From a bacterium (GTDB lineage: Bacteria; Thermosulfidibacterota; Thermosulfidibacteria; Thermosulfidibacterales; Thermosulfidibacteraceae), in assembly GCA_027022065.1 (NCBI GenBank), contig JALVZS010000083.1:15880-22299 (forward strand): DNA of 6,420 nucleotides, read 5' to 3'. Numbering within the stretch: position 1 is the stretch's first letter; each line of letters starts with the position of its first letter. Under the pieces are notes generated by a model. The model saw only the letters and a program-made list of their open reading frames with translations. It did no database searches and was not told the origin of the DNA. Position numbers and translations under genes: made by a program. Of the stretch, positions 2,053 through 6,270 are shown piece after piece.

Positions 2053-3360
2053 CTACCTCCTCCCCATGCCCGTGTATTTGAAGCCTAAAGATTTTGCCTT
2101 TGATGGATCGTATATGTTCCTCAGGTCAACGAGAACATTGCCCTTCATAACATTTTTTAGCTTTTTTAGATCCAGGCTTCTGAACTGATTCCACTCCGTT
2201 ACTATGACTACGGCATCTGCATCCCTTGCGGCGTCGTAGGAGTCCTTTGCGTAGTATATGTTATTTCCAAACACCTTTTTTACATTTTCCATGGCGGCGG
2301 GATCATAAGCCTTGATCGTTGCTTCCTCTTCAATCAGCCTTTTGATAATGTACAGGGAGGGGGCTTCTCTTATATCATCTGTGTTGGGCTTGAAGGAAAG
2401 TCCGAGTACGGCAACGGTTTTTCCCGATACGCTTCCATTAAGCATGCTCTTTATCTTGGAAAAGGCCACCTCCTTCTGCCTCTCGTTCACCTCAATGGTG
2501 GCTTTCACCAGCTTGAACTCGTATCCCTGGCTTTCTGCTATCTTTAGTAAAGCCTTGGTGTCTTTGGGGAAGCAGGAGCCTCCAAAACCGGGTCCGGGAT
2601 GCAAAAACTTGGGGCCTATGCGCCCGTCTAGACCCATGGCCCTTGCCACCTCGTGCACATCCGCACCCACTATGTCGCAGAGGTTGGCAATCTCGTTTAT
2701 GAAAGAGATCCTCATGGCTAGATAGGAGTTGGATGCGTACTTTATAAGCTCGGCTGTTTTTATGTCTGTGAACACAAATGGAGTATCCCTTAAGTATAAA
2801 GGTCTGTAAAGATCCTTTAAAATGGCTCTGGCAGAGTCACTTTCGGTGCCTATCACCACCCTGTCGGGGTGCATGAAGTCATAAACGGCGGATCCCTCTC
2901 GCAGAAATTCGGGATTGGATGCCACATCAAAGGACACGCTGTTCTTCTTGGTCTCCTCAATGATCTTCTTTATCCTGTAGCCTGTACCCACGGGAACTGT
3001 GCTTTTTGTAACTATAACCTTGTAGTCGTTAAGGTTTTCTGCAATCTTTCTCGCCACCTCTTCAACATAGGTGAGATCTGCCGAGCCGTCTCCCCTCGGG
3101 GGTGTTCCCACAGCTATGAAGATAACAAGAGAATCCTTGATGGCGGAGTTAATGTCTGTTGTGAATGAGAGCCTTCCCTCTTTTAGATTTCTTTTTACCA
3201 GCTCTTCCAGTCCAGGCTCGTAGAAAGGAACCTTTCCACTTTTAAGGCTTTCTACTTTCTCCTCCACCTTATCAACGCACACCACCTCGTTTCCAAATTC
3301 AGCAAAGCAGGCTGCCGTTACTAATCCCACATAACCTGCTCCTATAACCGCTATCTTCAT
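2053..3360 (-). CDS. ugd: UDP-glucose 6-dehydrogenase
   Basis: A member of the UDP-glucose/GDP-mannose dehydrogenase family (435 residues, full length). It performs the NAD-dependent four-electron oxidation of UDP-glucose to UDP-glucuronate, a precursor for extracellular or envelope polysaccharide. The N-terminal Rossmann domain opens with IAVIGAGYVGL (3-13) and has Asp30 at the end of beta-2, favouring NAD. Further family marks are NPEFLREG (149-156), Lys207 and Asn211 in ELIKYASNSYLA, and the catalytic Cys263 with Asp267 in GFGGSCFPKDTKAL. The second nucleotide-binding domain begins near VAVLGLSFKPNTDDIREAPS (319-338). GDP-mannose or UDP-N-acetyl-sugar dehydrogenases are alternatives, but the overall motif set is Ugd/TuaD-like. 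The ATG overlaps the upstream LysM gene stop as ATGA. No glycosyltransferase or other sugar gene is nearby to reveal the product's fate. Confidence 0.95.
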   Translation of the reverse strand: MKIAVIGAGYVGLVTAACFAEFGNEVVCVDKVEEKVESLKSGKVPFYEPGLEELVKRNLKEGRLSFTTDINSAIKDSLVIFIAVGTPPRGDGSADLTYVEEVARKIAENLNDYKVIVTKSTVPVGTGYRIKKIIEETKKNSVSFDVASNPEFLREGSAVYDFMHPDRVVIGTESDSARAILKDLYRPLYLRDTPFVFTDIKTAELIKYASNSYLAMRISFINEIANLCDIVGADVHEVARAMGLDGRIGPKFLHPGPGFGGSCFPKDTKALLKIAESQGYEFKLVKATIEVNERQKEVAFSKIKSMLNGSVSGKTVAVLGLSFKPNTDDIREAPSLYIIKRLIEEEATIKAYDPAAMENVKKVFGNNIYYAKDSYDAARDADAVVIVTEWNQFRSLDLKKLKNVMKGNVLVDLRNIYDPSKAKSLGFKYTGMGRR

Positions 3361-4157
3361 CTAACCACCTCTACAAATCTTTTGGGTTTTATGGGCCTGT
3401 TTTTGGTTCTTATCCATAGCCTTAACACTGTATTTCTTACAGCATATCCCATTTGCTGTCCTTTTCTCAACATCATTCCTTTTCTGATGGTCCAGGCTAT
3501 CCCGTCTGCCACATAGACAGAGTATAGTCCTCCTGGGTGCTTTAGCAGAACGAAGCTGTTCATACCGTTTATGGATCTTTCCAGATACACGACCTTTCCC
3601 CTTGCTACCGCAAGCACCTTCTCCCCTTTTAACAGGGGTATGTCCACCCTGTTTCCCACAACGGCTACCGTCATGGTTCTTCCTATGGGGGAAAGAAGCG
3701 AAACTCCTTTAACCTTAAAGTGCTTTTTCAATAAGCCCTCGCTGGCAGTGAGCTTTACCTTTTGGGTTATCTTCCAGTCAAGGAGCTTGTCGCAGGGAAG
3801 GTATATGGGCCTTCCCGCAATGAGTGGCTTTTTTACAGAGAGATTGTTGTACAGGGCGATTTTCTTTACTGGGATCCCGAAGCGTATGGAAAGCCCTATC
3901 AGGGTATCTCCTCTTCTCACTTTATAGGGGCAAAGTCCTTCTAAATCTGCCACGACCTTGCAGGGAAGCAGTATCTTTTGGCCGGGCCTGAGCCTTCTGG
4001 GATCTTTTATGCGGTTTATGTATTGAAGCTTTTTTATTGGAACTCCTGAAAGCCTGGACAGGGAGTAAAGGGTGTCTCCCTTTCTTATGGAGTACCTGCA
4101 CCATGATGCATGCGAGGTTGCTGGGATGACAAGTATAAGGAGGAAGGCTATGAGCAA
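3357..4157 (-). CDS. Exported LysM-LysM-degenerate LytM (M23-like) protein, NlpD-like
   Basis: A 266-residue envelope protein. A hydrophobic signal peptide (1-17, ending SHA before Ser18) suggests signal-peptidase I cleavage. There is no lipobox, unlike E. coli NlpD. Two LysM peptidoglycan-binding domains follow (about 20-66 and 76-122), each with the RKGDTL/RRGDTL start and a PGQKILLPC/AGRPIYLPC end. Each is bracketed by cysteines (20/66 and 76/122), so a disulfide staple is likely. The C-terminal part (about 153-264) reads like an M23/LytM fold (VDIPLLKGEKVLAVARGKVVY, VLLKHPGGLYSVYV, LRLWIRTKNRPIKP). All three expected zinc histidines are replaced (Gly168, Ala217, Arg246); only Asp172 remains. 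It should bind peptidoglycan without cutting it, perhaps activating an amidase as NlpD/EnvC do. The start is TTG, chosen for the strong AAAGGAGGT seven bases upstream and because it gives the signal peptide. Confidence 0.9.
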   Translation of the reverse strand: MLIAFLLILVIPATSHASWCRYSIRKGDTLYSLSRLSGVPIKKLQYINRIKDPRRLRPGQKILLPCKVVADLEGLCPYKVRRGDTLIGLSIRFGIPVKKIALYNNLSVKKPLIAGRPIYLPCDKLLDWKITQKVKLTASEGLLKKHFKVKGVSLLSPIGRTMTVAVVGNRVDIPLLKGEKVLAVARGKVVYLERSINGMNSFVLLKHPGGLYSVYVADGIAWTIRKGMMLRKGQQMGYAVRNTVLRLWIRTKNRPIKPKRFVEVVR

Positions 4158-4594
4158 CCCAGGACCTCCTTTATCCTGCTGAAGGCTTCTTCAACGGAGC
4201 TTGCTTTTATCACCCCTGGTATGTCCCAGCTCATAAGGGATATTACGGGCTTCCCCATCTTGAGGGCAAAGGCTATTTCAGAGAGCGTTCCGTATTCTCC
4301 TCCAACTGCCACAAGCACATCCGCTGTTGCTGCTATTATCACATTCCTTGCGTGCCCCAGCCCTGTGGCTATGGGAATGTCAATATACGGGTTGGCGTCG
4401 TTTCTGTTGTAGGTGGGAACCACTCCTATGGTGATTCCACCTGACTCTTTTACACCTTTTGCGGCGGCTTCCATAACGCCGCCCAAACCACCACATATAA
4501 CAGGATAGCCCAAGGTGCCGAGGAGGCGTCCAAGGGAAAGGGCGTTTTCCAAATCCCTGGGGGATGCCTGGGATGCTCCTATGACGCCTATTAT
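4148..4594 (-). CDS. SLOG/LOG-family (TIGR00725-like) protein, start codon unresolved
   Basis: A cytosolic Rossmann-fold protein of the SLOG superfamily, close to the TIGR00725/LDcluster4 group once called lysine decarboxylase-like. Relatives include LOG phosphoribohydrolases, which release a base from nucleoside monophosphates; the activity of this subgroup is not established. The core begins with IIGVIGAS. Numbered from there, it has GGLGGVMEA (35-43), GHARN (80-84) and the nucleotide-site motif GGEYGTLSE (98-106, a variant of PGGxGTxxE). Length is about 148 residues, roughly that of the family. There is no ATG, GTG or TTG at the expected start. The bounds given run from the ATA at 4592-4594, the first whole codon after the tRNA. 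The frame is open back through the whole tRNA-Pro to an ATG at 4688-4690 with a weak AAGG site. The next usable start inside is TTG at 4550-4552, but that removes the first beta-strand. It overlaps the next gene by 10 bases. The family call is firm; the start is not. Confidence 0.8.
   Translation of the reverse strand: MIGVIGASQASPRDLENALSLGRLLGTLGYPVICGGLGGVMEAAAKGVKESGGITIGVVPTYNRNDANPYIDIPIATGLGHARNVIIAATADVLVAVGGEYGTLSEIAFALKMGKPVISLMSWDIPGVIKASSVEEAFSRIKEVLGCS
4164..4172 (-). promoter_or_regulatory. Strong Shine-Dalgarno deciding the TTG start of the LysM/LytM gene
   Basis: AAAGGAGGT lies inside the end of the upstream LOG-family gene, seven bases from the TTG at 4155-4157. It is the strongest ribosome-binding sequence in the window and supports the unusual TTG start. 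The first in-frame ATG falls well inside the mature protein, so a start there would lose the signal peptide. Confidence 0.8.
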
Positions 4595-4595
4595 A

Positions 4596-4672
4596 TGGTC
4601 GGGGCGGCCGGATTCGAACCGGCGACCCCCAGCTCCCGAAGCTGGTGCGCTGCCAAACTGCGCTACGCCCCG
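4596..4672 (-). tRNA. tRNA-Pro (anticodon CGG)
   Basis: A complete 77-base cloverleaf with encoded CCA. The acceptor stem is CGGGGCG/CGCCCCG, the D stem GCGC/GCGC, the anticodon arm CCAGC-TTCGGGA-GCTGG with CGG at the anticodon, and the T arm GCCGG-TTCGAAT-CCGGC. The discriminator is A73. C1-G72, A73 and G35/G36 are the bacterial proline identity elements. It decodes CCG. It begins one base after the pcm stop codon and its CCA ends one base before the conserved LOG-family coding region, so it can only be made by cutting the polycistronic transcript. Nearly all stem pairs are G-C, consistent with a thermophile. Confidence 0.97.
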
Positions 4673-4673
4673 T

Positions 4674-5321
4674 CTATTCTGGCCATCCATACCTTCCCTT
4701 TAGCTTAACAAACACACAACCGCCCAGATTTTCCTTCCTGATCTTTCCCCCTGGAAGCTTTCTAATTCTTAAAAGCTCCTGTGTCAATTCACTTCCTACG
4801 GGTATAACCAGCACCCCTCCCTCTTTAAGCTGTTCTACAAGGGGCTCGGGAACTTTTGGAGCTGCCGCTGTTACTATTATGGCATCGTAAGGAGCGTGTT
4901 CCTGCCAGCCCTCTGTGCCGTCTCCCAGCTTAAACTTTATGTTTTTATATCCCAGCTTGTCCACTAGAAGCTTTCTTGCCCTTTCCAGCAGCTCTGGAAT
5001 ACGCTCAACTGTATAAACCTCCTTGGCTATTTCCGCTAAAATAGCGGCTTGGTAGCCACTTCCGGTTCCTATCTCCAGCACCTTTGCCTCTTCGGGAAGC
5101 TCCAGCGCTTCCGTCATAAGTGCCACTATGTAAGGCTGGGATATGGTCTGTCCGTATCCTATGGGCAGGGGCCTGTCGTCATAGGCGGAATCCCTTATGT
5201 ACTCCGGGACAAACAGATGGCGGGGAACTTTAAGCAGTGCATCTATGACCCTTTTATCCCTTATACCGCGCCTCTCTATAGACTTTACAAGCTCTGCTCT
5301 TTCCCTGTCGTAGTCTACCAT
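4674..5321 (-). CDS. pcm: Protein-L-isoaspartate O-methyltransferase
   Basis: Pcm (215 residues, typical length) uses S-adenosylmethionine to methylate L-isoaspartyl residues, starting repair of damaged proteins in the cytoplasm. The N-terminal region has [10 protein letters not shown] (32-41) and the substrate-loop motif GYGQTISQP (55-63). The SAM-binding motif I is [13 protein letters not shown] (81-93), followed by TVERIPEL (104-111). Motif II is [21 protein letters not shown] (133-153 region). The C-terminal strand [10 protein letters not shown] resembles the family's usual ending. The ATG overlaps the surE stop by 7 bases, and purine-rich AGGAGA and GAGA sequences upstream lie within surE. 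surE and pcm are neighbours in many bacteria. Isoaspartate forms faster at high temperature, which fits a thermophilic host. The gene ends right against tRNA-Pro(CGG). Confidence 0.96.
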
Positions 5322-6096: not shown

Positions 6097-6173
6097 TGGT
6101 CGGGGCGACCCGATTTGAACGGGCGACCACTGGCCCCCCATGCCAGTGCTCTGCCAGGCTGAGCTACGCCCCG
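6097..6173 (-). tRNA. tRNA-Pro (anticodon GGG)
   Basis: A complete 77-base cloverleaf with encoded CCA. The acceptor stem is CGGGGCG/CGCCCCG, the D stem GCTC/GAGC, the anticodon arm CTGGC-ATGGGGG-GCCAG with GGG as the anticodon, and the T arm GCCCG-TTCAAAT-CGGGT (last pair G-T). Discriminator A73 and C1-G72 match proline identity. It reads CCC and CCT. The acceptor stem is identical to that of tRNA-Pro(CGG) in the same unit, while the D, anticodon and T stems differ with compensating changes. It lies nine bases after tRNA-Leu and 20 bases before surE. Confidence 0.97.
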
Positions 6174-6182
6174 ATAAAAAAA
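6174..6182 (-). terminator. T7 run directly after tRNA-Leu, possible attenuator
   Basis: Reading along the transcript, the CCA of tRNA-Leu is followed by seven T residues, then AT and the next tRNA. A GC-rich stem (the tRNA's acceptor/T-arm coaxial helix) followed by a U-run resembles an intrinsic terminator. The genes continue immediately downstream without a new promoter that I can see. If it works, it is therefore likely partial, setting a higher level of tRNA-Leu than of the downstream genes. It may also simply be an AT-rich processing spacer. This is inferred from layout only. Confidence 0.3.
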
Positions 6183-6270
6183 TGGTGCCGGAGGCGGGAT
6201 TTGAACCCGCACGGGCACGAGGCCCACTGTCCCCTCAAGACAGCGCGTCTTCCAATTCCGCCACTCCGGC
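6183..6270 (-). tRNA. tRNA-Leu (anticodon GAG)
   Basis: An 88-base class II tRNA with encoded CCA. The acceptor stem is GCCGGAG/CTCCGGC with discriminator A. The anticodon arm is CTGTC-TTGAGGG-GACAG, giving anticodon GAG, which reads CTC and CTT. A long variable arm (GGGC-CTCGT-GCCC) and the T arm GCGGG-TTCAAAT-CCCGC confirm a leucine-type tRNA. It is the first gene after the promoter at 6284-6312, so its 5' end lies only a few bases from the predicted transcription start. Confidence 0.97.

Follow-up and report, generated by a model that had tools for sequence, protein, structure and literature searches.

A complete tRNA-Pro(CGG) gene as a candidate in-frame beginning of a conserved SLOG-domain protein

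One known setting in which a tRNA gene lies inside an mRNA operon is the tRNA-tufB operon of E. coli, and the locus described here resembles it in that the tRNA gene and a protein gene are co-directional and likely belong to one transcript that is cut by processing. In the known operons of this kind, the protein gene possesses its own ribosome-binding site and start codon past the tRNA; this is also the arrangement in the sister family of the one considered here, while the latter lacks such a start. A second setting is that of overlapping, translationally coupled gene pairs (PMC10666635), in which, as with the candidate start here, the downstream frame opens shortly before the upstream gene stops, but the overlap in this case is 17 nt, longer than the usual 4 or 1 nt, and the downstream frame contains a complete tRNA. 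A third is presented by the spurious open reading frames on tRNA genes, of the AntiFam type (PMC9710616), that arise because one frame of a tRNA is usually open. The same sense translation (RGVAQPGSAPASG...RPDH) is encountered here, but the frame runs into a conserved domain that is under selection and that has no other ordinary start (ATG, GTG or TTG), in three genomes. An open-access search of the literature found no bacterial precedent for a tRNA read in frame by a conserved protein, and, as far as found, such in-frame use of a whole tRNA would add a new form to the known overlapping sequences with a dual function.

The window, the entire stretch of 6,420 nucleotides analyzed, is part of contig C83 of a 1.57-Mb draft genome (G000), and its minus strand carries, all in the same orientation, tRNA-Leu(GAG), tRNA-Pro(GGG), surE (assigned from sequence), pcm, tRNA-Pro(CGG), a LOG-like gene, a LysM/M23 gene and further genes. 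The comparison set comprises nine genomes, all of one order (searches of the class and the phylum added none): the window's family is represented by G000, G001 and G002 (public records for the two relatives are JAADEW010000018.1 and JALVKL010000041.1), a second, sister family by five genomes, and a third family by G008. The order of pcm, tRNA-Pro(CGG) and the LOG-like gene is the same in all nine. Three tRNA genes, at two sites of the window (6097-6270 and 4596-4672), are found inside one apparent protein-gene operon (surE, pcm, LOG-like, M23), and in G002 the frame of tRNA-Pro(GGG) is also open into surE (L012:146-300), which has its own ATG. In the Nitrospirota loci L013 and L014, tRNA-Pro(CGG), at about 2122-2200, is also positioned upstream of a LOG-like gene; in L013 another small open reading frame lies between the two, and pcm is not adjacent. 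At the far end of the LOG-like gene, the LysM/M23 gene (3357-4157, minus strand) has a TTG start and a very strong Shine-Dalgarno sequence (-12.1 kcal/mol) located inside the end of the former (4148-4157, a 10-nt overlap), so the two may be translationally coupled.

All features of the junction are on the minus strand. The pcm gene (4674-5321), encoding protein-L-isoaspartate O-methyltransferase (NCBIfam NF001453, 274 bits with a cut-off of 188; Pfam PCMT), ends with a TAG stop (4676-4674), which also closes the 17-nt overlap with the following frame as counted from its candidate start. This candidate start is an ATG inside pcm (4688-4690), 18 nt before the tRNA, and it is preceded, likewise inside pcm, by a Shine-Dalgarno-like sequence, AAGGGAAGG (4692-4700). 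The tRNA-Pro(CGG) gene (4596-4672; ARAGORN; Rfam RF00005, 66.2 bits, over the cut-off) is intact, and its covariance-model score, its cloverleaf and its compensatory changes predict a functional tRNA, with both sides of the T-stem changed relative to the second family (GCCGG/CCGGC against GGCCG/CGGCT). The CCA end is encoded in the window genome and is not encoded in G001 and G002. A spacer of 4 nt, CCAT (4595-4598), leads from the discriminator base to the first isoleucine codon, and the initial annotation was correct in placing ATA ATA (4589-4594) one base past the encoded CCA: a single T is followed by ATA ATA GGC GTC ATA GGA GCA TCC, encoding the conserved strand IIGVIGAS. It was also correct in naming the ATG inside pcm as the sole ordinary start, as the frame (4690-4148) has no stop from this ATG through the tRNA into IIGVIGAS, and no ATG, GTG or TTG is present in the LOG-like frame between this ATG and the TTG at 4552-4550, the first NTG past the tRNA. 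The proposed coding sequence (4148-4690) would specify 180 amino acids, a 32-residue basic, Gly/Arg-rich extension followed by a 148-residue TIGR00725/SLOG-4 domain. Most of the extension would indeed be sense translation of the tRNA, although not all of it, as first described: about 26 residues come from the tRNA and the spacer, and about 6 from the end of pcm. The sequence RFESGRPDHIIGVIGASQASPR is a predicted peptide that spans the tRNA-encoded part and the domain. When the junction was folded, its minimum free energy was not below that of shuffled sequences (z 0.38).

The assignment to the LOG family made at the outset is a loose one. The protein matches TIGR00725 (138 bits, cut-off 106.9) and Pfam PF18306, LDcluster4/SLOG cluster 4 (153.5 bits, cut-off 26.3), and it fails the models for cytokinin LOG, riboside 5'-monophosphate phosphoribohydrolase (NF058542, 29.3 bits versus 300; TIGR00730, 53.3 versus 96.35). 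The nearest solved structures are those of Moco carrier proteins (6y01 and 2iz5-2iz7), with 6y01 and 2iz5 at the top of both sequence and fold searches; the Moco carrier protein of Rippkaea orientalis (MCP, 6y01) has the same domain and fold (TM 0.78/0.85, 42% identity). By these comparisons the LOG-like protein appears closer to Moco carrier proteins than to cytokinin LOGs, Moco binding being only putative. What the LOG-like frame possesses in addition to the Moco carrier proteins, TIGR00725 and SLOG cluster 4 is the extension derived from the end of pcm and the tRNA. In the AlphaFold model of the 180-residue frame, residues 1-30 have a pLDDT of about 46-55, which rises to about 95 at residue 31 and beyond, with strand 1 at residues 34-37 and the first helix at residues 44-59, suggesting that the conserved domain begins where the tRNA ends. 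The SLOG motif GGEYGTLSE is intact.

The LOG-like protein, its first 8 codons included, is under strong purifying selection. Across the three genomes of the family, dN amounts to 0.18-0.20, with dS at saturation (1.56-1.58, or out of the method's range). For the first 8 codons dN is 0-0.06 while third positions differ freely, indicating that the glycine-rich first strand is translated as codons. The first of these acts as an ordinary isoleucine codon, ATA being the commonest isoleucine codon of the region (102/152).

The initial annotation proposed aligning the junction in close relatives, and both other genomes of the family turned out to share the tRNA and the missing start, with LOG domains 75-77% identical to that of the window. 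In place of a start, the three genomes have ATA ATA, ATT ATC and ATT GTT, and the strand IIGVIGAS (or IVGVIGAS) begins exactly 4 nt past the discriminator base in each of them, so that the frame is kept while the bases of the spacer change (CCAT, TTTT, TATA). The upstream ATG with its AAGGG site is likewise found in all three, in frame and at an equal distance from the tRNA. As the missing start is common to two further genomes, a sequencing or assembly error has been rejected as an explanation; the observation that would have pointed to one, a normal ATG before the strand at the same tRNA position, is confined to the sister families, suggesting a lineage-specific loss. Of the 78 loci surveyed, which include the two family relatives, 74 have an ordinary start no more than 12 codons from GVIGA; the remaining four are the two family relatives, L028, with its ATG at 17 codons, and L086, which lies at a contig edge. 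No other convincing start-less gene past a tRNA was found among the sampled tRNA loci of the window's family.

In the sister family, all five genomes have the tRNA, then a leader of 30-35 nt, a Shine-Dalgarno sequence (-10.8 to -11.4 kcal/mol in the three genomes scored) and an ATG before the conserved strand (for example, MAKAVVGVIGAS), indicating that it is in the window's family that the start was lost. The phase of the protein relative to the tRNA drifts in these genomes (2, 2, 1, 0, 1), and in all five the open tRNA frame (frame 2) is without an upstream ATG; one genome has a TTG there, and in G006 an ATG occurs in a different tRNA frame. In G008 the frame is also open through the tRNA into the LOG-like gene (L096:1384-1497); its upstream ATG has a Shine-Dalgarno-like site (-6.6 kcal/mol) while the ATG of the domain has none, so G008 may use either. 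Overall, all 4 genomes without a Shine-Dalgarno-led downstream start carry the upstream ATG, and none of the 5 that have one does (exact probability 1/126), a contrast that reflects two or three independent events at most. In a tree of the domain, the three start-less genomes group together (96/95), and the second and third families are joined more weakly (93/76). From these sequences, the simplest history would be that the ancestor of the family lost its leader and start once.

Such an ancestor would have lost the leader, the Shine-Dalgarno sequence and the start codon between the tRNA and the LOG-like gene, probably by deletion, as the comparison of families suggests, and the deletion join would have brought the open sense frame of the tRNA into phase with the protein. 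One tRNA frame is open in 9/9 genomes, and landing in it would therefore be about a 1-in-3 chance. The ribosome would then start at the ATG in the 3' end of pcm, aided by AAGGG and perhaps also by termination at the pcm stop a few codons further on, unwind the still unprocessed tRNA and read into the domain, which would gain about 32 residues that are basic and probably disordered. We favor this initiation at the upstream ATG, with reading through the unprocessed tRNA, over a start at AUA or AUU, and on the sequence evidence consider it fairly probable. The arrangement expected of dual coding, a frame that stays open across the tRNA and leads into a domain under selection without another ordinary start, is what is found at this locus, and of the options listed in the initial annotation dual coding is the best supported, by architecture, conservation and selection, although it falls short of proof. 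The codons of pcm also explain the ATG. The stable structure of the tRNA, which would have to be unwound before processing, speaks against read-through, and the case for it in the window's family is built on three genomes.

The signals at the upstream ATG are modest. With the 3' end of the 16S rRNA found (GGCTCACCTCCT) and used for anti-Shine-Dalgarno duplex energies, the AAGGG site scores -7.7 (window), -4.6 (G001) and -4.6 (G002) kcal/mol and the sequence before ATA/ATT only -1.7, which amounts to no site, whereas most neighboring genes have strong ones (-7 to -13; weaker for surE, -3.2, and for the first gene, -2.9). Moreover, both the ATG and AAGGG fall within conserved pcm codons (KG[RK]YGW, with TAT as 26 of the 69 Tyr codons here) and could thus exist for pcm alone. 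Third positions of the six pcm codons at the ATG are invariant in the family (permutation p 0.026), but in the same region of the normal-start sister family the block is stronger still, with 10 of 12 third positions conserved (five genomes, 12-codon window, p 5e-5), so the family signal is not specific, and synonymous constraint has been set aside as proof of a start. Some other constraint, perhaps a tRNA promoter or a leader element, may act on the 3' end of pcm in both families. In the sister family the final 15-20 codons of pcm (L091, L092, L095, and the reverse of L093 and L094) mostly contain TTTACGGTAAA, and this block may serve the tRNA as a promoter or a processing element. A sigma-70 promoter, sought at the end of pcm in the window to explain the synonymous constraint, was not found.

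The alternative that survives best is a start at AUA (AUU in the relatives) just past the tRNA, on a polycistronic mRNA or on a nearly leaderless one freed by 3' processing of the tRNA. This codon sits exactly at the beginning of the first strand, AUU is a known rare initiator, and excision of the tRNA would place a 5' end 1-4 nt away, with RNase Z cleavage being plausible in G001 and G002, where no CCA is encoded. Against this, the codon has no Shine-Dalgarno sequence and varies (ATA, ATT, ATT), never having turned into ATG across two genera though one change suffices. Published findings also count against it: a switch to AUU was estimated for about 1.6e-5 of the AUG starts reconstructed (PMC5622118), leaderless messages in E. 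coli are translated far less efficiently even when they begin with GUG, UUG or CUG (PMC9031893), and IF3 discriminates in vitro against AUU when the anticodon is CAU (PMC10158994). AUA initiation, as originally listed, is therefore a weakened option, and we regard it as unlikely. Less probable still, and by a good measure, is a +1 frameshift close to the pcm stop that would make the domain an extension of Pcm, or some other unrecognized initiation: the tRNA/LOG frame is indeed +1 relative to pcm, with the 17-nt overlap, but inspection revealed no slippery motif, and the C-terminus and stop of pcm vary (TAG/TAG/TAA) with no common shift signal. Two further options of the initial annotation are both rejected as highly improbable: a shortened protein from the TTG at 4552-4550, which, although the first NTG past the tRNA in the window, is AAG in G002, corresponds to residue 47, within the first helix, and would cost the protein its predicted first strand and its glycine loop, which are encoded by codons under purifying selection; and a decayed or untranslated gene, which the lack of an ordinary start past the tRNA might suggest, but which dN of about 0.2 with saturated dS, the intact GGEYGTLSE, the absence of stops and the identical state in three genomes contradict.

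Returning to initiation at the upstream ATG, the only ordinary start precedes an intact tRNA, and the same RNA would thus probably supply both the tRNA and the opening codons of the protein. Cleavage of this transcript by RNase P and by 3' processing would release tRNA-Pro and cut off the upstream ATG from the domain, so each transcript would yield either the tRNA or the protein, not both. RNase P RNA is found in 8 of the 9 genomes, and a protein-only RNase P, as in Aquifex, need not be invoked. A tRNA-Pro(UGG), whose wobble pairing could cover CCG codons, turned up in G002 but not in the incomplete samples of G000 and G001. On balance we lean toward a whole functional tRNA that doubles, when read in sense, as coding sequence for part of a conserved protein, a state kept across two genera, with maturation and synthesis competing for each transcript.

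The alternative of a conserved AUA/AUU start without a Shine-Dalgarno sequence would also be unusual. Sense translations of tRNAs are routinely discarded as annotation noise; if, in this family, the tRNA is truly the sole ordinary route to a conserved protein, then selection can keep such frames, and competition between RNase P and the ribosome would be testable on one transcript.
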